From assembly GCA_036881865.1 (NCBI GenBank), contig JBAJNM010000009.1, forward strand, positions 1 to 55,205: a stretch of 55,205 bases of DNA, read 5' to 3'. Origin of the DNA: Parvularculales bacterium. Lineage in GTDB: Bacteria; Pseudomonadota; Alphaproteobacteria; JAPOUT01; JBAJNM01. The translations under genes and the position numbers were made by a program. Positions 1 to 12,001 of this stretch are shown piece by piece (position 1 is the stretch's first letter; each line of letters starts with the position of its first letter). The notes below the pieces were generated by a model, which had not been told where the DNA came from, searched no databases, and saw only the letters and a program-made list of their open reading frames with translations.

Positions 1-234
1 CCTGATCGCGGGCCGTGCGTCTTTCAGGCTTCGGCGAATATCCCTACGCACATCGGCAGGTATGGACGACATAAGAGCGCGATATTCCGACTTACCAAAA
101 GCAAAAAAACCAACCGGAATACCAACCAACAACAGATTCAGTGCCAGGGAAACATACAAAACCCACCTCCAGCGTTTCCAGCGACGGCCTGCGGCCTCAA
201 GTTCCGGATTATTATTGGTATTGTCCATTGTCAT
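1..234 (-). CDS. Periplasmic heavy-metal sensor/resistance-like protein (partial)
   Basis: The reading frame opens at an ATG at 234 and runs off the left edge, so only the first 78 residues are present. After a short polar N-terminus and a basic stretch (RRWKRWRW), one hydrophobic segment at about residues 25-47 (YVSLALNLLLVGIPVGFFAF) anchors it to the inner membrane. The sequence after it (SSIPADVRRDIRRSLKDARP) resembles the start of the Metal_resist/CpxP-like periplasmic helical domain. Such proteins often sit beside an ECF sigma factor and act as metal or stress sensors, but no partner is visible here. The Shine-Dalgarno region is a direct duplication: a 10-base unit occurs twice at 236-255. 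The family call is moderate because the C-terminal part is missing. Confidence 0.55.
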   Translation of the reverse strand, partial: MTMDNTNNNPELEAAGRRWKRWRWVLYVSLALNLLLVGIPVGFFAFGKSEYRALMSSIPADVRRDIRRSLKDARPAIR

Positions 235-536
235 ATCTATTCTCCTCTATTCTCCTGCTTACTCAACACTGCCCTGAAACCCGATCAAGCCCGAATCCAA
301 AAGCACCTCTCCACCCGTTATCTCCACTTGTTATCACCCGCTTGCCCGACACCAAAATCATCACCGGAGTCAGGCATGGTCCCTTCAAATACGGGCCGGC
401 ACTATTCATGTTCCATACAAGGTTAAACGTACCGCAGACCGGATTCCGTCGCAGAATTATTTTTTATGGCTCCGGAGCCGGAGGGGAAGTGTGCCGCGGG
501 CCGCTGCTATGCTTGCCGACGTATGTTTGCCGTTGT
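235..536. other. Non-coding stretch
   Basis: No reading frame with protein-like composition was found on either strand. It holds the duplicated ribosome-binding unit of the gene to its left (236-255) and a 12-base perfect palindrome GGCTCCGGAGCC near 470-481. That palindrome has no T run on the correct side to act as a terminator for the minus-strand gene ending at 537. Confidence 0.4.
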
Positions 537-1337
537 TTATGTTGCGGGGCGCACGGAAAGATGGCGATAAGAAACAGATAAAACGGAAATAAACAATAAA
601 GTAACAAGCAGGAAACTTGCCAGAGAGACAACGAAAAACAGCAGAATAAACAAGACCGGCAGAAGAAGACCGGCCTCACCTTCCGCGCTGCCCAGAACAG
701 TGAACATAAGGACAAACACAAGTGAAAAAACGAGATAAAAAACCACAGACACCGGCAGTATTGCGCCCGCAGTGGCAAGGCACAACCGCCCGCAATTTCC
801 CCCGGTCATTGCCCAGGCCTCTTTGATCAACAGACCTCCCCTAACCGCCGTAAGAGGCAACAACAGGCTCAGGCGCACCTGCAAATAAAGTGTCACCAAT
901 AAAAAGAACAGAAATATGCCCACACTTAAAACACCGGCAGTGCGGTCAGCACCGTCCATGACGATCAAACCGAAAACCGTTCCTGCAATTAACAGAATGC
1001 CCGGCAAGGATACAACCACCGTCGCCAGAAGATAGCGCCGATAATAGCCGCGCCAACCCGCGTTGCGTTCCCCCAGTATGATATACCGGCTCCAGGGAAC
1101 GGCAAACAAAGGGAAAATTAACCACGGAAGCAAAATAATCCCATACCCCAGCAACGCAAGAGTACGAATTTCATAATAGTGATAATAGAACTCCAGCCCC
1201 AACGAATAAGCCGCCTGCAGAATAATCAGCGCGACATAGGCTAAAGCGGCGTACCGGACCAGACGCATCATGGCTCTTCCATGGCGGAAGAACCCTTCAT
1301 AGGTTTCTCTCAAAACTTCGACAACGGGTAATTTCAT
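537..1337 (-). CDS. Six-helix integral membrane protein, unknown function
   Basis: The 266-residue protein starts at the ATG at 1337 (MKLPVVEVLRETYEGFF). The in-frame extension upstream to 1469 is polar and overlaps the next gene, so it is probably not translated. An N-terminal amphipathic helix precedes about six hydrophobic segments. The motif pattern (LLIKEAWAMTGGNCGRL between helices) resembles glycerophosphoryl-diester-phosphodiesterase-type and DUF-type multi-helix membrane proteins of alphaproteobacteria, but I cannot name a family. The product should lie in the inner membrane. It follows the EamA exporter gene on the same strand, about 95 bases downstream. No catalytic residues are evident. 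Confidence 0.6.
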   Translation of the reverse strand: MKLPVVEVLRETYEGFFRHGRAMMRLVRYAALAYVALIILQAAYSLGLEFYYHYYEIRTLALLGYGIILLPWLIFPLFAVPWSRYIILGERNAGWRGYYRRYLLATVVVSLPGILLIAGTVFGLIVMDGADRTAGVLSVGIFLFFLLVTLYLQVRLSLLLPLTAVRGGLLIKEAWAMTGGNCGRLCLATAGAILPVSVVFYLVFSLVFVLMFTVLGSAEGEAGLLLPVLFILLFFVVSLASFLLVTLLFISVLSVSYRHLSVRPAT

Positions 1338-1432
1338 CCTGCCCCTGTTCCCTCCGAACTCACTTCCGGCCATTACACTACCATGCATCCGTGTCAGATT
1401 CCGCTCCGGAAACCGGAATGCCCTGACCGGCC

Positions 1433-2461
1433 CTATCCCCCCGAAAACCGCGACGCCATAAACCGCCATGGCCGGCCGTCAACAATCGCCAGACCCAGCC
1501 CGACAAGAGCAATTCCCGCCAAATGCCGCACGGTCAAAATCTCTCCCAAAATCAGAATTCCCAGAATTAACGCGCTCACCGGAACCAGAACCGTGACCAG
1601 CGTGACATTCGCCGCGCCGACATCAGACAGGAGTTTAAAATAGATAAAATACGCCACCGCCGATGACAGCACACCCAGACAAATAACCGAGACAATGGTC
1701 CAAACACCCGGAACCGGCAGCTGCCACGGGGCATCAATCCACACGACAAGGGGCAACAGGACCACCGCCGCGACCACCGCCTGACCCGCCGCCATGGCCG
1801 TCGGCGTTACCCCCAGCCCGTAAACCCGACGCGCATAAATGGCCGCAAAGGCATAACACAGTGCCGCCGCCAACACGGCTCCCTGCGCCAGAACATCAAC
1901 GCCTAACGACTCCAGCGCCTGTCCGCCGACAATGACCGCAACGCCTGCAAGGCTGACCACGGCACCGCCAAAACGGTGACCGGCAAGTTTCTCATCCTCT
2001 GTAAAAAAATGCGCCAGAACGGCAGTGAAAATAGCGCTCATGGTAATCAGGACCGCCGCCAGCCCCGATGCAATATGGGATTGCCCCCATGCAATCAGCG
2101 AAAACGGAACGGCGTTATTCAACAGCCCCACGACAACAAGCGCCGACCACGCTTTACGGGTGGCGGGCAATCGTTCACCACCGGCCCAAATAAAAACCAC
2201 CAAAACAAGGGCCGCCAGAAAAACCCGAAAAAACACGATGGTAAAAGGCTGCAGTTCTTCAACGGCAACGGCGACGAAGAAAAACGACGAGCCCCACAGT
2301 ACCGAAAGCACGATCAACAGGGTCCACGACCCTGCCGACATGGTCCGGTCAGGATTTAACACTCCGGCACCCATTGGTCTGGCGGCCACTGGTTTGGCGG
2401 CAGGTGGTCTAATACCGGGCAGTTTGCTGTTTTTCACGTTTTTATGTTCCCTGACCTTCAT
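1433..2461 (-). CDS. EamA/DMT-family transporter
   Basis: This is a drug/metabolite transporter superfamily protein with ten predicted transmembrane segments arranged as two EamA repeats. The first repeat begins with the typical SVLWGSSFFFVAVAVEELQP motif at about residues 53-72, and the second begins near VLAQGAVLAAALCYAFAAIYARR. The pattern FIYFKLLSDVGAANVTLVTVLVPVSA is the conserved end of the second repeat. Members export amino acids, nucleobases or other small metabolites across the inner membrane; the substrate cannot be read from sequence. The first 40 residues are polar and proline-rich, so the true start may be Met41 at 2341. Neither start has a strong Shine-Dalgarno sequence. Confidence 0.85.
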   Translation of the reverse strand: MKVREHKNVKNSKLPGIRPPAAKPVAARPMGAGVLNPDRTMSAGSWTLLIVLSVLWGSSFFFVAVAVEELQPFTIVFFRVFLAALVLVVFIWAGGERLPATRKAWSALVVVGLLNNAVPFSLIAWGQSHIASGLAAVLITMSAIFTAVLAHFFTEDEKLAGHRFGGAVVSLAGVAVIVGGQALESLGVDVLAQGAVLAAALCYAFAAIYARRVYGLGVTPTAMAAGQAVVAAVVLLPLVVWIDAPWQLPVPGVWTIVSVICLGVLSSAVAYFIYFKLLSDVGAANVTLVTVLVPVSALILGILILGEILTVRHLAGIALVGLGLAIVDGRPWRFMASRFSGG

Positions 2462-2590
2462 CCGTTTATGTTACATAGCCTTAATCCGGGGATTTATATA
2501 CTCAGGGTTTTATATTCCCTGAACCGGTACGGGGCTTCGAAATGCCTGACGGCACCCCGAAGGGGCTATTGCACCGTCCGGCTGCGCCGC

Positions 2591-2657
2591 ACCGTCTCAG
2601 ATTTATTTGCAAAAAGCCTGACGGAGCTGCCTACGGCAGAGCCGGCATGCGGATTTC
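2591..2657. repeat. Dispersed palindromic repeat, copy 1 (degenerate)
   Basis: Bases 2591-2615 are identical over 25 positions to 10486-10510 (core CAGATTTATTTGCAAAAA). The second shared core, GCCGGCATGCGGATTT, follows at about 2641 after a 25-base insertion that itself contains a CTGCC-TAC-GGCAG hairpin. The right arm that closes the palindrome in the other copies is missing here. Confidence 0.6.
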
Positions 2658-2806
2658 CTTATTGACCCGACGGAGCCGATAAGCGGTGATTCGCCTACGG
2701 ATTGCCGGTTACACCTCCTGCCGGTTTTGCCCGTTTCTCATGGCATCCGGGGCGCCCTGAACGCCGTTTTTCGGGCATATTATACGGATTTTACCCCTAT
2801 TAGTGC

Positions 2807-2834
2807 TTGACGTCCGTTTGAAAAGGGTTATTTT
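2807..2834 (+). promoter_or_regulatory. Candidate sigma-70 promoter for the adhesin gene
   Basis: TTGACG at 2807-2812 and TATTTT at 2829-2834 are separated by 16 bases, upstream of the adhesin gene. They would give a leader of roughly 190 bases. This is a prediction from consensus only. Confidence 0.4.
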
Positions 2835-2875
2835 GAGGCTGGTAATGAATTTAACGGAATCCTTGCACTTGACCG

Positions 2876-2978
2876 GATTCCACCCTGGCAGGGAAAGATC
2901 TCAATCAGGATGATGGCACATATCTATACGCCGGCGGCAGGCTGAGTGTCTGCGATGCGATTCCACCCCCGGGGGAAC
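2876..2978 (+). promoter_or_regulatory. Two related hairpins in the adhesin 5' leader
   Basis: The unit GATTCCACCC followed by a complementary G-rich arm and AA occurs twice, at 2876-2895 (CCCTGGCAGGG core) and at 2959-2978 (CCCCCGGGGG core). Both can fold as TTC..CCC/GGG..AA stems. The loop and flank sequences differ while the stems are kept, which fits an RNA element. No known riboswitch consensus was recognised. Confidence 0.35.
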
Positions 2979-3031
2979 TCTGACACGGCACTCACAATGA
3001 CAGAATGAAGAATCAGAAAAGGAAGAACGTA

Positions 3032-4717
3032 ATGATACAGAACTCCATTTTTTCGGGAACCTCTACTTTTTACCGGGGTATGATTTCGGTCGGCATTGCG
3101 GCGGCCTTCGCCTTTTCCGTCGGCGGGGTGATGTTGACCGGCAGCGATGCACGGGCACAGACGGTATATACGGCGGTAGATTGTTCATCGCTTACCGGAG
3201 ATGCGGCGACTAATTGTGCAGCGGCAAATGAAGCTGGACGGAGAGCCAATGAAGCGTATACGGAGGCAAATGGCAAGCTAAATCCGAGTGCTTTAGACAG
3301 CTATGTCCGGACCGGCGATGCTAAGAATAATCTTGACGATTTAGACGATGTTAACGCACCTGCTCCTTCAGATAATCAGATTCTTAAATGGAACGCCACT
3401 ACAAGTACATGGGAATTGGCAGCTGATGAAACCGGGACTTCGATGAATGATATTACTAGTGCGGTAAGTACAGAGACAACTAACCGGGAAACGGCGGATA
3501 CGGCTCTGGGCCAAAGAATAGATACTCTGACAACGACGGTAGGTACCAAGGCAGATACGACTGCGTTAAATACAGAGATAACTAACCGGGAAAATGCGGA
3601 TACGAATCTGGGCAACAGAATAGATACCGTGACGACGAGCGTAAGCAACACGAACACCAGAATAGATAATCTGCGCACTACCCTGAACTCGGAGTCCAGT
3701 GGTGGGGCGAATGATGGCCTTGCTTCGGATCTTGAACTGGCAAATGAAAGAACTGCGCGGACAAATGCGGATACGAATCTGGGCAACAGAATAACTACGC
3801 TGGAAGGCTCGTCGCAAACTGCAGATGATGTTACAAATGCTATAGCTGCTGCGGATATTGGCGATTTAAACAATATTGATGTATCCGGAGCACAAAGTGG
3901 TAATGCTCTTACATTCGATGGCAATGACTGGGTAGATACCGATCTGGATGCTACCTATGCTACGGATCAGGAACTGGCAGATCTGGAACTTGGCGATTTA
4001 GCTAATGTTGATTCTACTGCCGCTACAGATAATCAGGTTCTTAAATGGGACGACACTACCGACATGTGGACAGCGGAAGATAACGACCTTGGCGGATTAA
4101 GCGATGTTGATTTATCCGGTAATCGTGAAGAAAAGTACGTTCTTACCTGGGACGATACTGCTAATATGTGGGAAGCGAGAGAGGCCGACGTTACACAAGA
4201 GGAACTAGATGCTGAGGAAATGGCCCGGATAGATGCGGATAGGATGGAGCGAGAAGCCCGGATAGCGCAGGATGAAATCCATACCGCAAATATAGAGACC
4301 AATAGAGTTGATATAGCTGCCAATAAAGGAACGTTAGATGCCCATGGTGAGTGGATAGATGCCGCGACCGATACGTTAAATGACCATGAGATGCGGATTA
4401 CAACCACGCACGCTCTGGCAACAACAAACCAGTCCAACCTGATGGAACTGGATAACCGGGTTGAAGGACTGGCACAGGATGTGGATGTTGTGCGTGAAGG
4501 CGTCGCCATATCAATGGCAATGGCCGATGCGGCCCCCCTGTTGCCCGGCGAGAGGTTCAGTCTTACGGCCGGCTATGGTCAATATGATTCAGCGCAGGCT
4601 TTCGGAGTCTCCGGGTCGGTCCGGCTGGCAAAGCGTGTCACCGCCGCCGTAGCCGGCGGCTTTGGCCTGAAACAGAGAAAATTCGGCAGCAGAGCCAGCG
4701 TCAGCTTCAAGTGGTAA
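3032..4717 (+). CDS. Trimeric autotransporter-like adhesin with tail-fibre-type repeats
   Basis: This is a cell-surface adhesin candidate of the type Vc (YadA-like) class. I chose the ATG at 3032, which has AGGAAG upstream; an in-frame ATG at 3005 would add nine residues (numbering below uses 3005). A signal peptide lies at about 26-51, ending in ARA|Q. The passenger carries four repeats of the form DL.DV..P..DNQ.LKW....W (about 110-138, 287-314, 330-359, 361-393) like those of phage tail fibres. Between them are three coiled-coil segments of the type NRE.ADT.LGNRIDT (about 157-180, 190-214, 246-269). Heptad-rich sequence at 395-500 leads into a C-terminal anchor of about 70 residues (FSLTAGYGQYDSAQAFGVSG...) that ends in aromatic W, as in YadA anchors. 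The gene stands alone. Base composition is more AT-rich than its neighbours, which suggests transfer. Confidence 0.8.
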   Translation: MIQNSIFSGTSTFYRGMISVGIAAAFAFSVGGVMLTGSDARAQTVYTAVDCSSLTGDAATNCAAANEAGRRANEAYTEANGKLNPSALDSYVRTGDAKNNLDDLDDVNAPAPSDNQILKWNATTSTWELAADETGTSMNDITSAVSTETTNRETADTALGQRIDTLTTTVGTKADTTALNTEITNRENADTNLGNRIDTVTTSVSNTNTRIDNLRTTLNSESSGGANDGLASDLELANERTARTNADTNLGNRITTLEGSSQTADDVTNAIAAADIGDLNNIDVSGAQSGNALTFDGNDWVDTDLDATYATDQELADLELGDLANVDSTAATDNQVLKWDDTTDMWTAEDNDLGGLSDVDLSGNREEKYVLTWDDTANMWEAREADVTQEELDAEEMARIDADRMEREARIAQDEIHTANIETNRVDIAANKGTLDAHGEWIDAATDTLNDHEMRITTTHALATTNQSNLMELDNRVEGLAQDVDVVREGVAISMAMADAAPLLPGERFSLTAGYGQYDSAQAFGVSGSVRLAKRVTAAVAGGFGLKQRKFGSRASVSFKW

Positions 4718-4792
4718 GCGGGCAGACACCTGCCGTCTCTTCCTAGCATACAAGAGTGACGTTTCAGACGCGCCGTTAAACGCTAAGAGCGC

Positions 4793-5134
4793 CTATTTTG
4801 CGTCCTCGGCCTGTGCCGCCAGAGCATCCATCGGGATGGCGATCTCCGGCGGAACCCCGTTATTAATGGCGACACCATAAACAAGCACCAGAAGAGTCAC
4901 CAAAACACCGCCAAAGGCCGCAACGAGTCTCGCCCGAACATAGTTTAACAGATGGCGGTAATTCAGCGACAGATGAGCGATCACAGACGCTACCATGACC
5001 AGTCCGAACAGTTTATGGACCGGATGCATCTGTATGGTGAACGACGGCTTTTCGATAACAAACATCATCAGCCCGGATGTGGCCATGGCAACAAAGGAAA
5101 CGAATAATGAAACGGCAACAATTTTTCTAAACAT
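4793..5134 (-). CDS. DUF4405-like small membrane protein
   Basis: The 113-residue protein starts at the ATG at 5134 (MFRKIVAVSLFVSF). Three hydrophobic segments are visible (about residues 4-24, 38-58 and 70-90). The segment with HPVHKLFGLVMVASVIAHLSLNYRHLLNY has spaced histidines of the kind that coordinate haem in the DUF4405/cytochrome-b-like fold, so a membrane electron-transfer role is possible but unproven. It begins 20 bases after the remains of a DUF169 gene and probably ended the operon that began with the Ldi-like gene at 7374. A second, partial copy of this gene lies at 5311-5466 (about 90 % identical by eye). Confidence 0.6.
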   Translation of the reverse strand: MFRKIVAVSLFVSFVAMATSGLMMFVIEKPSFTIQMHPVHKLFGLVMVASVIAHLSLNYRHLLNYVRARLVAAFGGVLVTLLVLVYGVAINNGVPPEIAIPMDALAAQAEDAK

Positions 5135-5153
5135 TATTTTTGAACCTCTTCTG

Positions 5154-5310
5154 TCAGGACGATTTGACACCAGTAAAACGGCGGGCATCTTCGCCCGCAT
5201 AGCGGCCCATTGCCCGGTTAAGCGCAACGGCGGACTCGAGTAACCCGATAATCTCTCCCAACCGCGAACCGGGCAATGCCGCCGTCATTTCATCCGCGCG
5301 CATTCCCGTG
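5154..5310 (-). pseudogene. C-terminal remnant of a DUF169 gene
   Basis: Reading leftward from about 5310, the frame gives RTGMRADEMTAALPGSRL and then EIIGLLESAVALNRAMGRYA, ending at a stop at 5154. This matches the usual C-terminus of DUF169 proteins (TG...DE....IP...L......L......N). The matching N-terminus lies at 5577-5837, separated by a foreign DUF4405 fragment and a hairpin element. The middle of the domain, about 100 residues, is missing. No start codon suits this piece alone. The assignment rests on recognition of family motifs and has not been tested by alignment. Confidence 0.55.
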
Positions 5311-5466
5311 CGGAACCTCGTTATTAACGGCGACCCCATAAACAAGCACCAGAAGAGTCACCAGAACACCGCCAAAAGCCGCAACGAGCCGTGCCCGGAC
5401 ATAGTTTAACAGATGGCGGTAATTCAGCGACAAATGGGCGATAATAGATACTACCATGACCAGTCC
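5311..5466 (-). pseudogene. Fragment of a second DUF4405 gene
   Basis: These 156 bases align without gaps to 4850-5005 inside the intact DUF4405 gene, with about 15 mismatches by eye. Translated on the minus strand the fragment reads GLVMVVSIIAHLSLNYRHLL and onward; only four residues differ over about 52 (A/V, V/I, I/V, G/E). The mostly silent differences indicate that it came from a functional paralogue and is not a fresh copy. It lacks the start and the end, and is flanked on one side by the DUF169 C-terminus and on the other by a cluster of hairpins. Confidence 0.75.
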
Positions 5467-5576
5467 CTGATAGGGCTGAGATATTCGTTCTCACGGACAC
5501 AAAGCGGGAGCAGCCGCTTTGTGTATGCAATACCGTCGCCAACAATCCGGCATGCAGATTTTTGGCGACGGTATTG
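5465..5576. repeat. Cluster of four hairpins; dispersed repeat, copy 2
   Basis: Four perfect inverted repeats follow one another: CCCT-GAT-AGGG (5465-5475), TGAGA/TCTCA (5477-5493), CACAAAGCGG/CCGCTTTGTG with a six-base loop (5498-5523), and CAATACCGTCGCCAA/TTGGCGACGGTATTG with a 19-base loop (5528-5576). The last hairpin shares its outer arms (CAATACCGT..ACGGTATTG) and its core (ATCCGGCATGCAGATTTTT) with the copy near 10483. The element interrupts the DUF169 frame after about codon 73 (counted from 5795). Confidence 0.8.
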
Positions 5577-5837
5577 AGCCGTTCGAACCCAGAAAACACA
5601 CCCCGCCGGAACGCTTCCCGTCCGGCCCGTGGCGTCAGGCGGCGGCGGTGACACTCCCGGCGGCGGAGGGGCAACAGGGGCATCCCCCGGAGCGTAAAAG
5701 GATATGGCCAGAGGTTCCGCCAGCGGCCTGAGGGCTTCCCCGAGACGCTTCGCCCATAAAGCGTGCTTCTGATGCTCCGTTTTCTGCTGCGCCATGTGTG
5801 TCAACCCTTTCCGCTCCGTTGTTCCGCGTATTGCCAT
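5577..5837 (-). pseudogene. N-terminal remnant of a DUF169 gene
   Basis: The frame starts at an ATG at 5837 (MAIRGTTERKG) preceded closely by AGGAG, or at the ATG at 5795 (MAQQKTEHQ). It reads AKRLGEALRPLAEPLAISF and, after a proline-rich stretch, SVPAGCVFW. Both are typical of the DUF169 N-terminal half, where a conserved PAGC.FW motif carries a cysteine. The frame then enters the hairpin element and loses similarity. The start overlaps the end of the Ldi-like frame, which suggests former translational coupling. DUF169 proteins have no firmly established function. Confidence 0.6.
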
Positions 5838-7374
5838 CACTCCTGTAGCCCGTATAAATCTGAAAAGAATGGGCGTTAATATCCGTCTCAATCTCGATGG
5901 TTCTCTCATCCACAGCCCGCCACGACGAAAACCCGCCGCCGTCACACAATATCCTGACATTGCCGGCATCGGGCAATGTGGTCACGCGAAAAGATGTACG
6001 GTTTCCACGGGCCTCCGCATTGCCCGCAAAAACGGTTAGTTGCAACTGACCGGCCCGGGTATCATTCCACGCCTGTGCGACACCCAGAGAAGGATAGTCA
6101 ACACCCTCGACGGTCGGCGCATGGTGCTTATCAAGATCGGGGTGCAAAAACAGATTACGCCACGCACCGGGCTCTCCGACTTCCGCTACCATCGCCAATG
6201 ACGACATCTGCCCGCGGGGCCAGTCTTCGCCCAGATTAAACCAGAAACCGAAATCCCCGTTGTCCCTGCCAAAAAAACGGGGCTCGAAGTGCCGCTCGGC
6301 ATAATCCCTCAACCGCGCCTCGGTTACATAGTCACCATATTCCCGCGAGACCGCCAGCCCGAGAGCCATAAAGCGCGGGTCAGGCATTTCCAGTACGGGA
6401 GATTGCGGATTATCCCACCCCAGAAAACTGACGGCAGCACGGTATAAAAACTCGGCAAACGCCGGCGCCTGCGGCATCATGTAAAATGAAATCGCCAACC
6501 CCATGGGCGGTGCCGTCGTCTGCATGTGATCAACCAGAGGATCGTAATACATGGGAGCCCACTCCAGTTTCCCCTCCCCGCTGATGCCGAAATATCTATC
6601 CTTATTGTGTTCCAGCCACCGTCCGTAAACATGATGGGACGATTTGCCAAAAACCGCATCATAGAGCTGAAGCCCCAGTCCCGCCGCCGACAGGCAATAG
6701 GGCCAGATTTTCGTATTCTCGCAATGAGGCCCCAGAGGGCTGGCGGTCCACTGGCTGACCAGATGCTCGACAATCCTGTGCTGGGTCCATTCAAAGCGGG
6801 CGCGGTCAACGCCCGCGACCATGAACGGGTCGCCCCACTTGTCCTCTCCCGTTACATAGGCGTGAAGGGACTGAATGAGATTCAACCATCCCTTAAAGAA
6901 TAAATTACCGTCCGCGCCGATGGGGTCAGGCTGCATTCCCCACGGCTCGATATCATTGGCAACCCAGCCGGGGACGTCATACTCGCCGACCAGATGTTCG
7001 GGTATGAGCGCATCAATCCATTCCTGAGGATAGGATTTACGCCGCGGGTCGGGGCCGAACTGGGTGAGCCAGTCAATTGCCGCCCAATAGGTCACATGAC
7101 GTTCGGCGAGACCGTTGAGAATCTCCCCATAGACCTCGCGCCATGCCGGTGTTCTGTCGGCCATGACGCCGATGGCATAGCAGGATTCGGACAAGTCAAA
7201 GCGCGGAAAACTCAACATGGGCGGTGTCGAGGCACCATCCCACCACGGGTGAGGTTCGCCGTCTTCGGACCAGTCGTCGGGGGTTGTCGCCTTGCGGTGC
7301 AAAAAACGCAACCACCCCGCCGCGCGATCATTCAAGCGCGGATAAGAGTTGCGAATCTCCGGTCCGTGCATCAT
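5635..7374 (-). CDS. Linalool dehydratase/isomerase-like protein
   Basis: The 579-residue frame resembles the Ldi (linalool dehydratase/isomerase) alpha/alpha-barrel family. Visible signatures are FDLSESCY (Asp60 and Tyr66, spaced like Asp39/Tyr45 of LinD), GNLFFKGWLN near 156-165, and HCENTKIWPYC, whose cysteines 218 and 227 are nine positions apart like the catalytic Cys171/Cys180 pair. Family enzymes act on isoprenoid-type alcohols; the real substrate here is unknown. No signal peptide is seen. From about residue 512 (near 5838) the sequence becomes low-complexity and reads through the DUF169 start in another frame, so the natural stop was probably lost by a frameshift. The gene headed an operon with DUF169 and DUF4405. 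Confidence 0.7.
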   Translation of the reverse strand: MMHGPEIRNSYPRLNDRAAGWLRFLHRKATTPDDWSEDGEPHPWWDGASTPPMLSFPRFDLSESCYAIGVMADRTPAWREVYGEILNGLAERHVTYWAAIDWLTQFGPDPRRKSYPQEWIDALIPEHLVGEYDVPGWVANDIEPWGMQPDPIGADGNLFFKGWLNLIQSLHAYVTGEDKWGDPFMVAGVDRARFEWTQHRIVEHLVSQWTASPLGPHCENTKIWPYCLSAAGLGLQLYDAVFGKSSHHVYGRWLEHNKDRYFGISGEGKLEWAPMYYDPLVDHMQTTAPPMGLAISFYMMPQAPAFAEFLYRAAVSFLGWDNPQSPVLEMPDPRFMALGLAVSREYGDYVTEARLRDYAERHFEPRFFGRDNGDFGFWFNLGEDWPRGQMSSLAMVAEVGEPGAWRNLFLHPDLDKHHAPTVEGVDYPSLGVAQAWNDTRAGQLQLTVFAGNAEARGNRTSFRVTTLPDAGNVRILCDGGGFSSWRAVDERTIEIETDINAHSFQIYTGYRSDGNTRNNGAERVDTHGAAENGASEARFMGEASRGSPQAAGGTSGHILLRSGGCPCCPSAAGSVTAAA

Positions 7375-8049
7375 GGAGATGTCACCGGATTATCCAATCA
7401 CCCGATCAGCCATGATACAGGGTAAAAACGCGTCAATATCTTGTCAACGCATAAAAGGGGCATAAAATCATGGCCACGCTTCAGCCGTTAAACGTCACGA
7501 TCTGTTAAACGTCAGGGAAACCGCCATGACCATGGACATGACACTATGGACATGATCAGGGAACGGACAGCCACTTTCAACACGACAACTGACAGCAATG
7601 CAGAATGCCATGACGTTGTCATTACCGGCACCGGGGGCGGAGATTGTGCACCCGGCGGTCAATTCCCCGGGGACGTTGACTGTGCAATTTATCCGGAAAA
7701 TTGCGGCTTCCGAATTCAGGGAGCCCCGCGATTACGGCATCATGACGCCTCCGGCGCAAAAAAAGCCCATAAACCGGGAAAAATCCCATGATATCGACCG
7801 GCCGGGCGACAGAGGCCCGTGTGAGAGAAAATGAGGGGGTGTGCCGATAAACCCTTGCCGGATGCGGTTCAGAGTGTATTATGACCGCAGAACCCGGCGT
7901 GAAGTGGATGGGAACCGACAACAGCCCCGAACAGGCAGGCTTCGCTGAAAAGCGGATGATACGGCCTTGAGGGGTATTGCAAAAAGAAATCTGAACAGGC
8001 CCGGCCGGAGGCGGCTCCGCCGAGTCATGACAACCGAAAGGACAATAGT
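7375..8049. other. Non-coding stretch between divergent genes
   Basis: Short frames here lack protein-like composition. It contains the promoter regions of the divergent Ldi-like and TbpB-like genes, a repeated GTTAAACGTCA motif at about 7486-7514, and a GGCGG/CCGCC hairpin near 8006-8019. GAAAGGA upstream of 8050 is a good Shine-Dalgarno site for the lipoprotein gene. Nothing else was identified. Confidence 0.35.
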
Positions 8050-9102
8050 ATGAATATCATCCGGATTATGACAGCAACTTTTGCAATGGCACTTCTGGCC
8101 GCCTGCGGGGGAGGGACTAGCGGTGTACGGGCCCCGGTGGTGCCCGACGCCATGGTGACGGGCGACAACATAGTGATTGAGGACGGGCAACTGGGTTCGT
8201 TCGCGAATTTATCGCAAGACGGTGATAACGCCCTGAGCGCGGCCCGCCTGGCGGCGAACGGTAACGCTCTTGCCGCACCTTCGGGTGTTGAGGGTGGTGA
8301 TGCGGGTAGTGTGACCATGTCCTCCGGCACCACCGCTGTTGCCACCGCAACGGTCAACATCCCGGCATCAGGCACAACAACCTACGAGCTGGATATTGCG
8401 GGGGGAACGTTTCTGGATACCGGTAACACTTACGACAAGGCAATAAAAACCAGACTCCCTGCCGGGGCCGACACCTTTGAGGAAGTGATCCTGCTGCATG
8501 ATGACGGGGACGGGGACAGGACGGCCATTCTGGCACACAACAGAGAGAATAACGCCACCGTCCAATATATCGCCTGGGGCATCTGGGCGGAAGTACCGGA
8601 TGCCGGAACAGCTACTTATGGCGCTTTTGCAGACAGTACCTCCGGCCTCGTCTATAATCAGGACAATCTGCCCTCGGTTACCGGAACGGCCACTTATAAT
8701 GGTCACGCCGTCGGGGCCGCTCTGGTTCCGGGCCAAAGCACAAATCCGTTTGTGGCAGATGTTAGAATCGTAGCCGATTTTAAAGTTGCCAGTAACACCG
8801 ACTTCGGAAATGTTGAAGGAACGGTCGATAATTTCCGGTTCCAGAGAGGGGCTGCGCCCGTCACTTCGGTTGATCTAGAGATGGTTAATATTAGAACAAG
8901 CGGTGGAAATTCCGGATACAGTCAAGGGACTACAAGCGCGATGACCACCGGTGCCACCCCGGTGGCCCTGACGGGTGAGTGGACAAGCAGGTTTTATGGA
9001 ACGGAAGGAGGAAGCACTCAACCCGCTTCCATTGGTGGAACTTTCGGTGTGCAAGCCGCAAATAATCTGGCCCTGCTGGGTGCCTTCGCGGCAGACCGCT
9101 AG
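8050..9102 (+). CDS. TbpB-like (Slam-type) surface lipoprotein
   Basis: The 350-residue protein begins with a lipoprotein signal peptide whose lipobox LLAAC places the lipidated cysteine at residue 19, followed by GGG, a usual feature of surface-exposed lipoproteins. The C-terminal ~150 residues have the transferrin-binding-protein B beta-barrel pattern: TATYNGHAVGAAL, then VADFKVASNTDFGNVEGTVD, then GEWTSRFYGTEG, and a final GTFGVQ....LLGAFAADR. Such proteins are displayed on the outer membrane, often with help from a Slam translocon, and bind host or environmental iron, haem or other ligands. No slam or TonB-receptor gene is next to it. Its ligand cannot be predicted. CCCGGGA/TCCCGGG downstream may help to end transcription. 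Confidence 0.75.
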   Translation: MNIIRIMTATFAMALLAACGGGTSGVRAPVVPDAMVTGDNIVIEDGQLGSFANLSQDGDNALSAARLAANGNALAAPSGVEGGDAGSVTMSSGTTAVATATVNIPASGTTTYELDIAGGTFLDTGNTYDKAIKTRLPAGADTFEEVILLHDDGDGDRTAILAHNRENNATVQYIAWGIWAEVPDAGTATYGAFADSTSGLVYNQDNLPSVTGTATYNGHAVGAALVPGQSTNPFVADVRIVADFKVASNTDFGNVEGTVDNFRFQRGAAPVTSVDLEMVNIRTSGGNSGYSQGTTSAMTTGATPVALTGEWTSRFYGTEGGSTQPASIGGTFGVQAANNLALLGAFAADR

Positions 9103-9109
9103 ACACTTA

Positions 9110-9128
9110 CCCGGGACGCTCTCCCGGG
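9110..9128 (+). terminator. Candidate hairpin after the TbpB-like gene
   Basis: CCCGGGA at 9110-9116 pairs with TCCCGGG at 9122-9128 around a five-base loop, eight bases after the stop codon. No T run follows, so it may be a processing or stabilising hairpin and not a classical intrinsic terminator. A second small stem, CAGCC-TAC-GGCTG followed by AGCCTTTTTT, occurs near 9311-9334. Confidence 0.35.
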
Positions 9129-9379
9129 CCATCATCAGCGCCCCGTGATGCGGTTCGCATTTACATCTACTCCCCGGTGAAGCGAGGCGCGGAGGATGCC
9201 GTTAGGTTTCACGCTGACAGGTCTGTAATACTCGTCCACCCCTGTAAATTCATCCACCGGATGAATGCTGTCTCCTATAATACCCCTGCGGGGTAGTTTC
9301 GCTTCGCTCAACAGCAGCCTACGGCTGAGCCTTTTTTCGGAAGACAGAGCACCTTCGGTGAGGACAAGCGTGGCGGACC

Positions 9380-10066
9380 CTACTCTCTATCGCTGTCCGC
9401 CGACATTGCCGCGCGCAGCCTACCTTCGTGCAGCTTCGCTACAAGCCTCTCATGATGACAGGCCGACTCATGGGCCTGCCGTGCCTCTATCTCGTATGGC
9501 ACCAGTTTTATCCACATTCTAAAAAACGCCAGCGGTTCCTTTTTCGCGAACTCGGTCAATGCATCCAAACCGCCAATCTCTTCAAATACATCCCGTATCA
9601 AATCGACGTACGCCAGCGTTTTTTTGTTCAGCGCACCCGGCGTCCTGCCCCCCTGCCCCTTCTTAAAGGCATGTTTACGCAATTGCTGCGGAACATCGTC
9701 AAGTCCTGCGGTCTCCTCTTCTCTATCGCTGTCCGCCGATATTGCCGCGCGGCGCCTTCCTTCCTCCAGCCTCGCTTCAAGCCTCTCATGATGAGGGACC
9801 GACTCACGGGCCTTCTTCGCCTTCATCTCGTATGGCAGCAGTTTTATCCAAATTCTCGTATAAAACGCTTTCGGGTTCTTTTTCGCGAACCTGACCAATG
9901 CATCATAACCGCCGCTCTTTTCAAATGCCTGTTGCAGTATTTCGCCAACCGTCAGCGTTTTTTTGTTCAGCGCACCCGGCGGCCTGCCCCCCTGCCCCTT
10001 CTTAAAGGCATGTTTACGAAATTGCTTCGGCACTTTGCTCACACGCTGTTCTCTCCCGTTGCTCAT
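9380..10066 (-). CDS. DUF5681-like protein made of two tandem copies
   Basis: The 228-residue protein starts at the ATG at 10066, eight bases after GGAG. It consists of one module repeated in frame: HAFKKGQGGRPPGALNKKTL near residue 19 and HAFKKGQGGRTPGALNKKTL near residue 131, each followed by a helical part (GG.DAL..FAKK.P.AF) and ending in SADSDRE. The period is 336 bases (112 codons), and the copies have diverged noticeably. The KGQ.G.PPGA.NK motif is typical of DUF5681 proteins, which resemble small terminase subunits of phages and bind nucleic acid in some predictions. No other phage gene is adjacent. The protein is basic and charged, probably cytoplasmic. Its function is unknown. Confidence 0.65.
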   Translation of the reverse strand: MSNGREQRVSKVPKQFRKHAFKKGQGGRPPGALNKKTLTVGEILQQAFEKSGGYDALVRFAKKNPKAFYTRIWIKLLPYEMKAKKARESVPHHERLEARLEEGRRRAAISADSDREEETAGLDDVPQQLRKHAFKKGQGGRTPGALNKKTLAYVDLIRDVFEEIGGLDALTEFAKKEPLAFFRMWIKLVPYEIEARQAHESACHHERLVAKLHEGRLRAAMSADSDRE

Positions 10067-10267
10067 CTGTCAATCTCCGTCTGATGTTGCTGCCGCTCCG
10101 CGCCTCCGGAGCTGCTATTGTCCTTCGTCTTGTTTCCGGGCGCCAAAGGCGGGCGCCGAGCATGTTGTATCTTCATAACAAAGATCCTTTCATTGCCTAT
10201 CTATCCGGAAAACAGAGCGCCTGCGACGATCCGGTTTTCCTGTTCAGTTAATGATCTGTTAATGACG

Positions 10268-10296
10268 GATGGCGAACGGCTCCGGCGTTCGCCATC
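10268..10296. other. Strong 11-bp hairpin
   Basis: GATGGCGAACG at 10268-10278 is perfectly complementary to CGTTCGCCATC at 10286-10296, with a seven-base loop. No T run follows on either strand. It is probably a repeat-type or RNA-stabilising palindrome between the convergently placed intergenic repeats. Confidence 0.5.
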
Positions 10297-10480
10297 ACTG
10301 CCCAGAAGGTCAGACAGCTCATTATTCCTGATGCCGAATTCCGGCTTCTGACGCCCCGGTAACGGCTACCGCCCCTCCCGTGGGGCCCGGGTCAACCGAA
10401 CCGTGGAGTGTATTGTAGGGGTATCCCGTAAAAAAATTTCATACCGGCAGTTCACAAATGCGTTATACGGCTTTGCCTAT

Positions 10481-10542
10481 GCAATACCGTCTCAGATTTA
10501 TTTGCAAAAATCCGGCATGCAGATTTTTAGCAACGGTATTGA
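10481..10542. repeat. Dispersed palindromic repeat, copy 3
   Basis: TATGCAATACCGT opens the element and ACGGTATTGAACCG closes it, so the outer arms CAATACCGT and ACGGTATTG pair. Between them are the two shared cores CTCAGATTTATTTGCAAAAA and TCCGGCATGCAGATTTTT. It lies just beyond the mgtE stop codon and could serve as a 3' end stem for that transcript. It shares the arms with the copy at 5528-5576 and 25 exact bases with 2591-2615. Confidence 0.7.
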
Positions 10543-10551
10543 ACCGCTCGT

Positions 10552-11934
10552 TCAAACAAAAAGGGGCAGAAACAAAGCGGCCAGTCCCAGAAAAATCAAA
10601 AAGCCGAAACTGTCGGTCACAAAGGTCAAAATAACGCTCACCCCCAGCGCCGGGTCACGCCCCAGCCGTTCCATCATCAAAGGAACCGCAACGCCCACAA
10701 GAGCGGCCACCAGCAGGTTGAGAGTAATCGCGGCCGTCATCAGGCCCCCCAGTAACGGGTAGCCATACAGAAAAAACGTAATGAGCCCCATCACACCACC
10801 CCATAGCAGGCCGTTGACCAGAGCGACCATCAACTCCTTGCGGAACAGGTACATAACATTGCTTCCCCCGATCTGCCCGAGCGCCAGCCCCCGCACCATA
10901 AGGGCGATGGTCTGATTGCCCGTATTGCCCGCAATGCTGGCAACAATGGGCATCAGGGTTGCCAGAGCCACCAGACGTTCAATATCTTCCTCAAACAGTG
11001 AAATCACGCGGGAGGCGAAAAAAGCCGTCATCAGATTAAGGCACAACCACAACCACCGGCGGCGGGCGCTTTCAAAAACGCGGCCCAGAATGTCTTCATC
11101 CCCCGGCAAGCCTTCGCGGTTAAACGCCTCTTCTTCACTTTCCTCACGCACCACATCCATAATCCGATCTACCGTCAAACGGCCCATCAACTGACCATGA
11201 CGATCAACCACCGGTGCCGATATCAAATCGTAACGCTCAAAGGCCAATGCCGCATCACCCAGCTCCTCACCGGCCCGCACATAAACCGGATCACGGGTCA
11301 TGATGTCCGCTACGGATTGCTCCGGCCCATACGTCAAGAGCGACGTCAAAGGCAACACGCCGACCAGCCGCCGCGCTTCATCAATCACAAACAGCTGATC
11401 GGTATGGTCGGGAATGGAATCAAGACCACGCAGAAATGTAAGCGCCTCCTGAATGCCGGAGGCTTCTCCAATCACAAGCATATCCGGACTCATATACCGG
11501 CCTACGGTCTCCTCCGGATAGCCTGCAATCATATCCAGCCACCGCCGGCGGGCCGGCGGCAGACTTTTCCGGAGCCGCTCTACGACAGTTCCGGTAAGAC
11601 CATCGACAATCTCGTTTAAGGCTTCAGGGTCCATCATCCGGCAGAGGGCCACCAGACGGTCTTCCTCCATATCCTGAATGAGAGATTCGGCAACGCTATC
11701 GGTTACCTCATAAAGAGCATCCGCCGCAATATCAGGGTCCAGCAAATTCCACACAAGCGTGCGTTGCCTCGGAGGCAACATTTCCAACAGATGAGCAATT
11801 TCCGCATCCTGCAAGCTCGTAACGGCACTACGCAACGGCGCTTCGGACCCCTCAACGTCATGACCGTCAACAAGCTCCAAAACCGGTGCCAAACGTTCTC
11901 TAAAACGATCTTCGCTTGTTTGTAACGTCTCCAT
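10552..11934 (-). CDS. mgtE: Magnesium transporter MgtE
   Basis: The 460-residue protein has the full MgtE layout. An N-terminal superhelical domain (about 10-135, with LLEMLPPRQRTLVWNLLDP) is followed by two CBS domains (about 145-270, with YMSPDMLVIGEASGIQEAL and IMTRDPVYVRAGEEL). A linker helix leads to five transmembrane helices carrying the signature MPIVASIAGNTGNQT and ALMVRGLALG. It forms a homodimeric Mg2+ channel in the inner membrane, gated by Mg2+ binding to the N and CBS domains. Length is normal. It is divergent from the glycosyltransferase gene at 12002, and the initiator codons are about 70 bases apart. Confidence 0.96.
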   Translation of the reverse strand: METLQTSEDRFRERLAPVLELVDGHDVEGSEAPLRSAVTSLQDAEIAHLLEMLPPRQRTLVWNLLDPDIAADALYEVTDSVAESLIQDMEEDRLVALCRMMDPEALNEIVDGLTGTVVERLRKSLPPARRRWLDMIAGYPEETVGRYMSPDMLVIGEASGIQEALTFLRGLDSIPDHTDQLFVIDEARRLVGVLPLTSLLTYGPEQSVADIMTRDPVYVRAGEELGDAALAFERYDLISAPVVDRHGQLMGRLTVDRIMDVVREESEEEAFNREGLPGDEDILGRVFESARRRWLWLCLNLMTAFFASRVISLFEEDIERLVALATLMPIVASIAGNTGNQTIALMVRGLALGQIGGSNVMYLFRKELMVALVNGLLWGGVMGLITFFLYGYPLLGGLMTAAITLNLLVAALVGVAVPLMMERLGRDPALGVSVILTFVTDSFGFLIFLGLAALFLPLFV

Positions 11935-12001
11935 GAGTTCAACTTCTCCTTGTTATGCCGGATGTGCCTTTATGTTATACTCACGTCGGGTCATCATTAA
12001 T

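Follow-up and report, generated by a model that had tools for sequence, protein, structure and literature searches.

What are the three short palindromic repeats near one end of contig JBAJNM010000009.1 of the alphaproteobacterium Parvularculales bacterium (assembly GCA_036881865.1), and why do they share pieces of sequence in differing combinations? The window analysed here is this complete contig (55,205 nucleotides; C9 among the 89 contigs of a 2.33 Mb draft genome that is 98.7% complete). An earlier note had described the repeats (2591–2657, 5528–5576 and 10481–10542) as one family with two interchangeable cores. Instead, two independent hairpin families, E36 and B, are nested here, and each of the three repeats is an E36 inserted in, or interrupted by, another hairpin. 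We consider it likely that the repeats in the window are decayed copies of two short hairpin elements, non-autonomous ones that spread within one lineage and inserted between and inside genes.

E36 is about 36 bp long (TTTATTTGCAAAAATCCrGCATGyGGATTTTTGGCt) and folds into a 10-bp stem with the loop GCATG; genome-wide, the two cores are parts of this one hairpin. Core scans of the window located CAGATTTATTTGCAAAAA exactly at 2598–2615 and 10493–10510 and CCGGCATGCAGATTTTT exactly at 5547–5563 and 10512–10528, and in both scans three matches were reached in none of 100 shuffles. Element B, whose structure was read from copies on C23, C33, C50, C58, C70 and C76, is a three-way junction of about 75 nt, running GTCC..CGG, hairpin P2, linker TAT, hairpin P3, CCG..GGAC; an uninterrupted copy on C76 reads CAATACCGTCTCTGACGGTATTG. 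The pairing arms CAATACCGT/ACGGTATTG, which do border copies 2 and 3, are the second hairpin (P3) of this host element, and the presumed cores are the E36 lying in its loop. A single arm is not rarer than chance (6 seen against 3.6 expected with one mismatch allowed); what is rarer is the close inverted pair of arms together with the common surroundings of copies 2 and 3. Genome searches used a model for B built on four copies (R1) and a covariance model for E36 built on 12 (R2). The features of the window are as follows.

2599–2618, plus strand: copy 1, left half of E36 (AGATTTATTTGCAAAAAGCC), placed after CCGTCTC; exact core, left junction as in copy 3
2619–2641, plus strand: copy 1, foreign module TGACGGAGCTGCCTACGGCAGAG between the E36 halves, read directly; a related CGGAGCTGCCGGTGGCAGAGCCGGCATGCGG lies at C33:10642
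2642–2658, plus strand: copy 1, degraded right half of E36 (CCGGCATGCGGATTTCC), three mismatches to the second core; weak R2 match at 2602–2662 (E 4.5)
5487–5588, plus strand: copy 2, an entire element B (three-way junction) whose P3 loop holds an insert; R1 E 2.1e-8, fold -54.8 kcal/mol (z -8.9)
5538–5566, plus strand: copy 2, E36 (GCCAACAATCCGGCATGCAGATTTTTGGC) replacing the TCT loop of P3, from alignment A4 and the uninterrupted loops on C76 and C52
10482–10541, plus strand: copy 3, what is left of a decayed element B: hairpin P3 and its tail, with the arms CAATACCGT/ACGGTATTG; blastn to B E 0.002, fold z -2.8, not picked up by the R1 genome search
10494–10532, plus strand: copy 3, complete E36 within the loop of P3, next to the mgtE stop codon on its 3' side; R2 match at 10497–10532 (E 6.5e-8)
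5290–5466, minus strand: gene remnant, a partial duplicate of the DUF4405/cytochrome-b-like open reading frame (ORF) at 4793–5227, from common sequence, ORFs and the Pfam match of the full gene
10552–11934, minus strand: mgtE, a neighbour outside the element (Pfam MgtE, MgtE_N and CBS)

In copies 2 and 3, E36 sits in the P3 loop of B, and it occupies the same position in copy 1. The insert in copy 2 measures 29–30 nt. Copy 3 has the order CAATACCGTCTC, E36, ACGGTATTG, with the remainder of B decayed. Copy 1, the other decayed copy, is without arms, folds no better than its shuffles (z -0.48) and reads CCGTCTC-AGATTTATTTGCAAAAAGCC-TGACGG, followed by a small foreign hairpin and then the right half of E36. 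The left junction is the same in copies 1 and 3, CCGTCTC|AGATTTATTTGCAAAAA; at this point an uninterrupted B reads CCGTCTC|TGACGG. Nesting also recurs outside the window: E36 lies within the GCAT^G loop of another E36 at C76:3214–3270 and 3912–3970, a further nested E36 is possible at C29:8020, and on C50 a copy of B separates the left half of an E36 from its right half. Each element is thus found within the other, which explains the differing combinations of cores. The loops of E36 and B total a few hundred bases of the 2.33 Mb genome, yet at least two independent cases, and perhaps more, are known here of an E36 lying in one.

The genome-wide search bore out the description of a modular, dispersed palindromic repeat and yielded more than a handful of copies. 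Strong matches comprise 18 copies of E36 in about 11 places (E <= 3.5e-5), with some weaker ones, and 13 copies of B (E <= 7e-7), window copy 2 among them; weak R1 matches on C12, C51 and C2 (E 0.03–2) were left out of the counts. E36 occurs singly (C76, C75, C52, C9), as neighbouring copies (C29) or in 34-bp tandem arrays (4.4 units on C50 and five on C68), and its core pattern has 14 exact copies in this genome. Within the window, the two models match only at 2602–2662, 5487–5588 and 10497–10532, all in the first 10.6 kb, so the proposed restriction to accessory DNA holds there; a further match at C9:31338, in the dense-gene part, spans 16 bases with no surrounding hairpin and was attributed to chance. 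Genome-wide the restriction fails, since copies lie inside protein-coding genes and about 13 of the 89 contigs carry the repeats.

Both folds show compensatory change, in copies that share descent and hence are not independent observations. The stem arms of E36 co-vary (CCA/TGG, CCG/CGG and CTG/CAG, with G-C/A-U and C-G/U-A swaps), giving a covariation score of 0.233 against a control of 0.126. For B, in an alignment (A4) that was itself fitted to the structure and model, 95.2% of cells in the helices are paired, two-sided change occurs at 15 pairs, and covariation reaches 0.470, compared with 0.152 +/- 0.020 in shuffled alignments (0/500) and at most 0.108 in slid controls. Single positions of B show several alternative Watson-Crick pairs; columns 20–67, for instance, have C-G, A-U and G-C.

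The copies inside genes supply the boundaries. Three genes on C76, paralogs that encode secreted cysteine-rich polypeptides, carry an in-frame E36 in the signal peptide (2718, 3190 and 3888); the filled forms read MKPLTTVM-FICKNPACGFLA-TFAIVMAFAFGTPAQAGD, with a nested form FICKNPA-YLFAKIRHADLLG-GFLA, whereas at least four paralogs, on C8, C12, C20 and C47, read MKTLTTFAFATLMAFAFGSPAQAGD or close variants and are free of E36. The net gain at the C76 sites is 45 nt, or 81 nt when nested, both multiples of three. In an ORF of 1099 amino acids on C33 (L132:2723–6019), B is present in frame four times, and for three of these four copies, repeat units with and without B agree up to its first base and then part (GGGAATATGG|GTCC.. 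versus GGGAATATGG|GGAT.., and CAATGCTATG|GTTC.. versus CAATGCTACG|ATAA..). Because the similarity of the C33 units ends where B starts, one boundary of B is fixed; the other end is less sharp, as different hairpins follow it. Boundaries at paralogous empty sites are consistent. On C75, E36 lies near the predicted starts of two large lipoprotein ORFs, one of which could use a downstream start. E36 is open in five of six frames; we do not claim that it was selected to be so, as 10% of shuffles that keep the hairpin do likewise, and B in turn lies only slightly above its shuffles (20/300).

Could local events account for all of this? An accessory region rich in repeats could generate the copies by local duplication, replication slippage and template switching, and they could then spread along with duplicated gene segments without transposition of any element; this would fit the 34-bp tandem arrays on C50 and C68 and the paralogous contexts of both C75 copies and of two C76 copies. 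The C33 ORF is likewise a product of duplication, as is the gene remnant beside copy 2, in which the earlier note had placed that copy: this truncated duplicate matches the gene at 4793–5227 up to GACCAGTCC, and the match breaks off about 20 bp before the element. Nevertheless, E36 occurs on many contigs in unrelated contexts (signal peptides, B loops, intergenic sites and positions upstream of several genes) without homologous flanks, and the signal-peptide empty sites show a gain of the element alone, which makes this explanation unlikely.

A second alternative takes B, and possibly E36, for a functional structured RNA or a regulatory leader, with copies that form a multi-copy non-coding RNA family kept by selection on the fold. 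The strong covariation in all B helices and the very stable folds would suit such a family, as would the C68 array of five E36 units, which lies shortly before a short-chain dehydrogenase gene, upstream of its start codon. However, no Rfam model matches, the copies stand in both orientations relative to genes, including on the antisense strand of ORFs, and the relatives searched are devoid of them. Moreover, the non-Watson-Crick cells in B are without strand preference: A-C (9) is not rarer than G-T (4), which gives no hint that an RNA read from the modelled strand was under selection. Template switching can itself yield compensatory hairpin changes, according to one study (PMC8794818). We regard a functional RNA as distinctly improbable. 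Intrinsic terminators or mRNA-end hairpins, suggested by T-rich arms and by copy 3, which adjoins the mgtE stop codon as had been described, are very improbable, given that a terminator scan lists none at the three copies, the hairpin is not followed by a T-run, and many copies lie inside ORFs.

The searches beyond this genome point to elements confined to one lineage. The E36 core pattern was absent from three genomes of the same order and gave single matches in 4 of 385 genomes of the class; a scan of 84,980 species returned 37 scattered stretches, and those read resemble chance or different hairpins. The B model gave no convincing match in 141 further genomes, of which three belong to the same order, and a single match in genome G100 (E 0.002) was judged to be chance. 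Core-pattern matches in KLAP47 and other Rickettsiales belong to a different hairpin (AAATCCCGCATGCGGATTT) and were set aside as convergent. As a separate observation, metagenome-assembled genomes of Rickettsiales and KLAP47 (L086, L087, L092 and L112) have a recurrent pair of hairpins of their own, AAATCCACAAGTGGGATTTG.. and CAAAATCCCGCATGCGGATTTTGTA, likewise with a GCATGC centre, probably convergent with E36. IMG/VR holds no exact match for E36 or for a stretch of B; B was not found in plasmids nor the copy-3 sequence in phages (E36 was not sought in plasmids, nor B in phages), and a viral or plasmid origin was rejected on these negative, partial searches. No paper containing the E36 peptide or core sequence was found in the literature.

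Among known systems, the closest are the Rickettsia palindromic elements (RPEs), which are palindromic and dispersed, lie in many cases in frame within genes, where they add peptide, and have no known dedicated transposase (PMC10969869, PMC3733652). E36 and B are likewise palindromic, dispersed, repeated within one genome and inserted in frame in protein-coding genes, and by this analogy they would work like RPEs. The review cited gives RPEs a size of about 150 bp, as opposed to 36 bp for E36 and about 75 nt with a three-way junction for B, and E36, unlike RPEs, nests in loops of B and of E36. The exact E36 core was absent from Rickettsia contigs in a scan of genome contigs (the RPE sequences themselves were not compared directly). 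Given the differences in size and fold, and with no homology demonstrated, E36 and B are not filed as RPEs.

Repetitive extragenic palindromes (REPs) of the GTAG and CGTC types are hairpins of 20–40 bp with known intragenic copies, and the CGTC type is common in Alphaproteobacteria and has no known transposase (PMC3733652). E36 and B are also short hairpins found within genes, but aligned copies have no GTAG at either end, and the REP-associated tyrosine transposase (RAYT, Y1 class) was not found in this genome. A CGTC REP is defined by an unpaired CGTC tag, an 8–9 bp stem starting with AT, a loop of 4–5 and a tail such as CCA; E36 has neither a GTAG or CGTC tag nor such a short tail, and B usually starts ..TTCGTCC, but its GTCC pairs with the terminal GGAC rather than standing unpaired as a tag, and the junction of B contains two hairpins. 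E36 and B resemble miniature inverted-repeat transposable elements (MITEs) in being small, non-autonomous and dispersed, with inverted arms; they appear to differ in that no parental transposon was recognised (Y1 class surveyed) and no long terminal repeats with target duplication were seen (the C76 empty site is without clear duplication), and E36 is much shorter. Quasipalindromes made by template switching share the arm-to-arm compensatory change and copying at hairpins, but they are known as a local mutation process, whereas E36 and B keep the same sequence across many contigs. Integron attC sites were also considered for B but find no support: GTT lies at the 5' side of B and AAC at its 3' side, opposite to the orientation of the attC boxes.

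The best reading of E36 and B is thus as lineage-specific, non-autonomous in-gene palindromic elements that resemble RPEs and are biased to hairpin loops. Behind it stand the repeat families, the covarying helices, the nesting, the in-frame copies with empty paralogous sites and the absence in the relatives searched. E36 appears to favour the loops of existing hairpins (the P3 loop of B or another E36), which suggests single-stranded loops as the insertion target. The elements may move as single-stranded hairpins during replication, being copied or pasted where loops expose single strands; alternatively, a transposase not recognised in this genome could mobilise them, and one acting on single strands would fit. 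Within genes, copies would be kept where the reading frame survives, and the complementarity of the arms might be maintained by hairpin-templated correction, by selection on the fold, or by both. The compensatory changes that template switching makes at replication can give rise to hairpins and preserve them (PMC8794818), and it may be this process, rather than selection, that keeps the arms complementary.

Several points weigh against this reading. Movement of E36 and B is deduced and none has been observed; the genome is a single draft in 89 contigs, and the empty sites are paralogous, not allelic between sister strains, with no clear target-site duplication where the C76 empty site was compared. 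A Y1 transposase (PF01797, RAYT/IS200-type) was not found in this genome by a search that was positive in 10 of 14 control genomes, and a mobiliser of that type was rejected; the transposase survey was limited to Y1, apart from one IS1595-like ORF seen on C51. The bias of E36 towards loops was noticed post hoc rather than predicted, and several nested copies may stem from one event. Finally, the fitting of alignment A4 inflates the pairing of B, although the slid controls still leave a wide margin. A bolder proposal, in which a mutually nested, lineage-specific hairpin system propagates into single-stranded loops without a transposase of its own and diversifies secreted proteins in frame (in signal peptides and between cysteine-rich units), is tentative and, on balance, rather doubtful.

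The genes around the elements have features of their own. The secreted polypeptides form a large paralog family (L042 on C76, 2718–4238; L132 on C33, 2723–6019; L190, L192, L195, L197, L198, L200, L201, L206 and L207) in which a signal-peptidase-like motif (..ITPAHAGD) recurs ahead of short segments that contain cysteine, with as many as about ten occurrences in the 1099-residue ORF. The two members tested gave no Pfam match; the family could be multi-peptide precursors. A multi-copy lipoprotein family ending in GTFG...LLGAFKAD, single or tandemly fused and up to 2461 amino acids long, is present on several contigs bearing E36 or B, and its two tested members were likewise without a Pfam match. 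Its members lie at

window 8050–9102
L043 (C75) 3–3308 and 4564–11946
L132 2–2611, 6493–7617 and 15540–16583
L042 4611–6608

The accessory region of the window also encodes a trimeric autotransporter-like protein with a YadA anchor domain (3005–4717) and, on the minus strand at 9380–10066, an ORF that carries a tandem pair of 339-bp repeats (about 80% alike) and whose resemblance to DUF5681 is weak and below the cut-off. At 9170–9400, more short hairpin modules (CTGACAGGTCTGTAATACTCGTCCA.., TACCCCTGCGGGGTA and TTTTTTCGGAAGACAGAGCACC..GGTGAGG) recur on C70, C75 and C52, and are probably further element families.

To our knowledge, palindromic elements within genes have been described mainly from Rickettsia, and their mode of movement has been unclear ever since they were discovered. 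Two unrelated hairpin elements are now seen in a sparsely sampled alphaproteobacterial order, with in-frame insertion, empty sites within the genome, a reproducible boundary and insertion in loops. The covariation of B carries a warning, in that a three-way-junction DNA repeat can mimic a conserved structured RNA exactly. Insertion in loops suggests that the target is a single-stranded hairpin, and the question of movement can thereby be put to the test in a laboratory strain.

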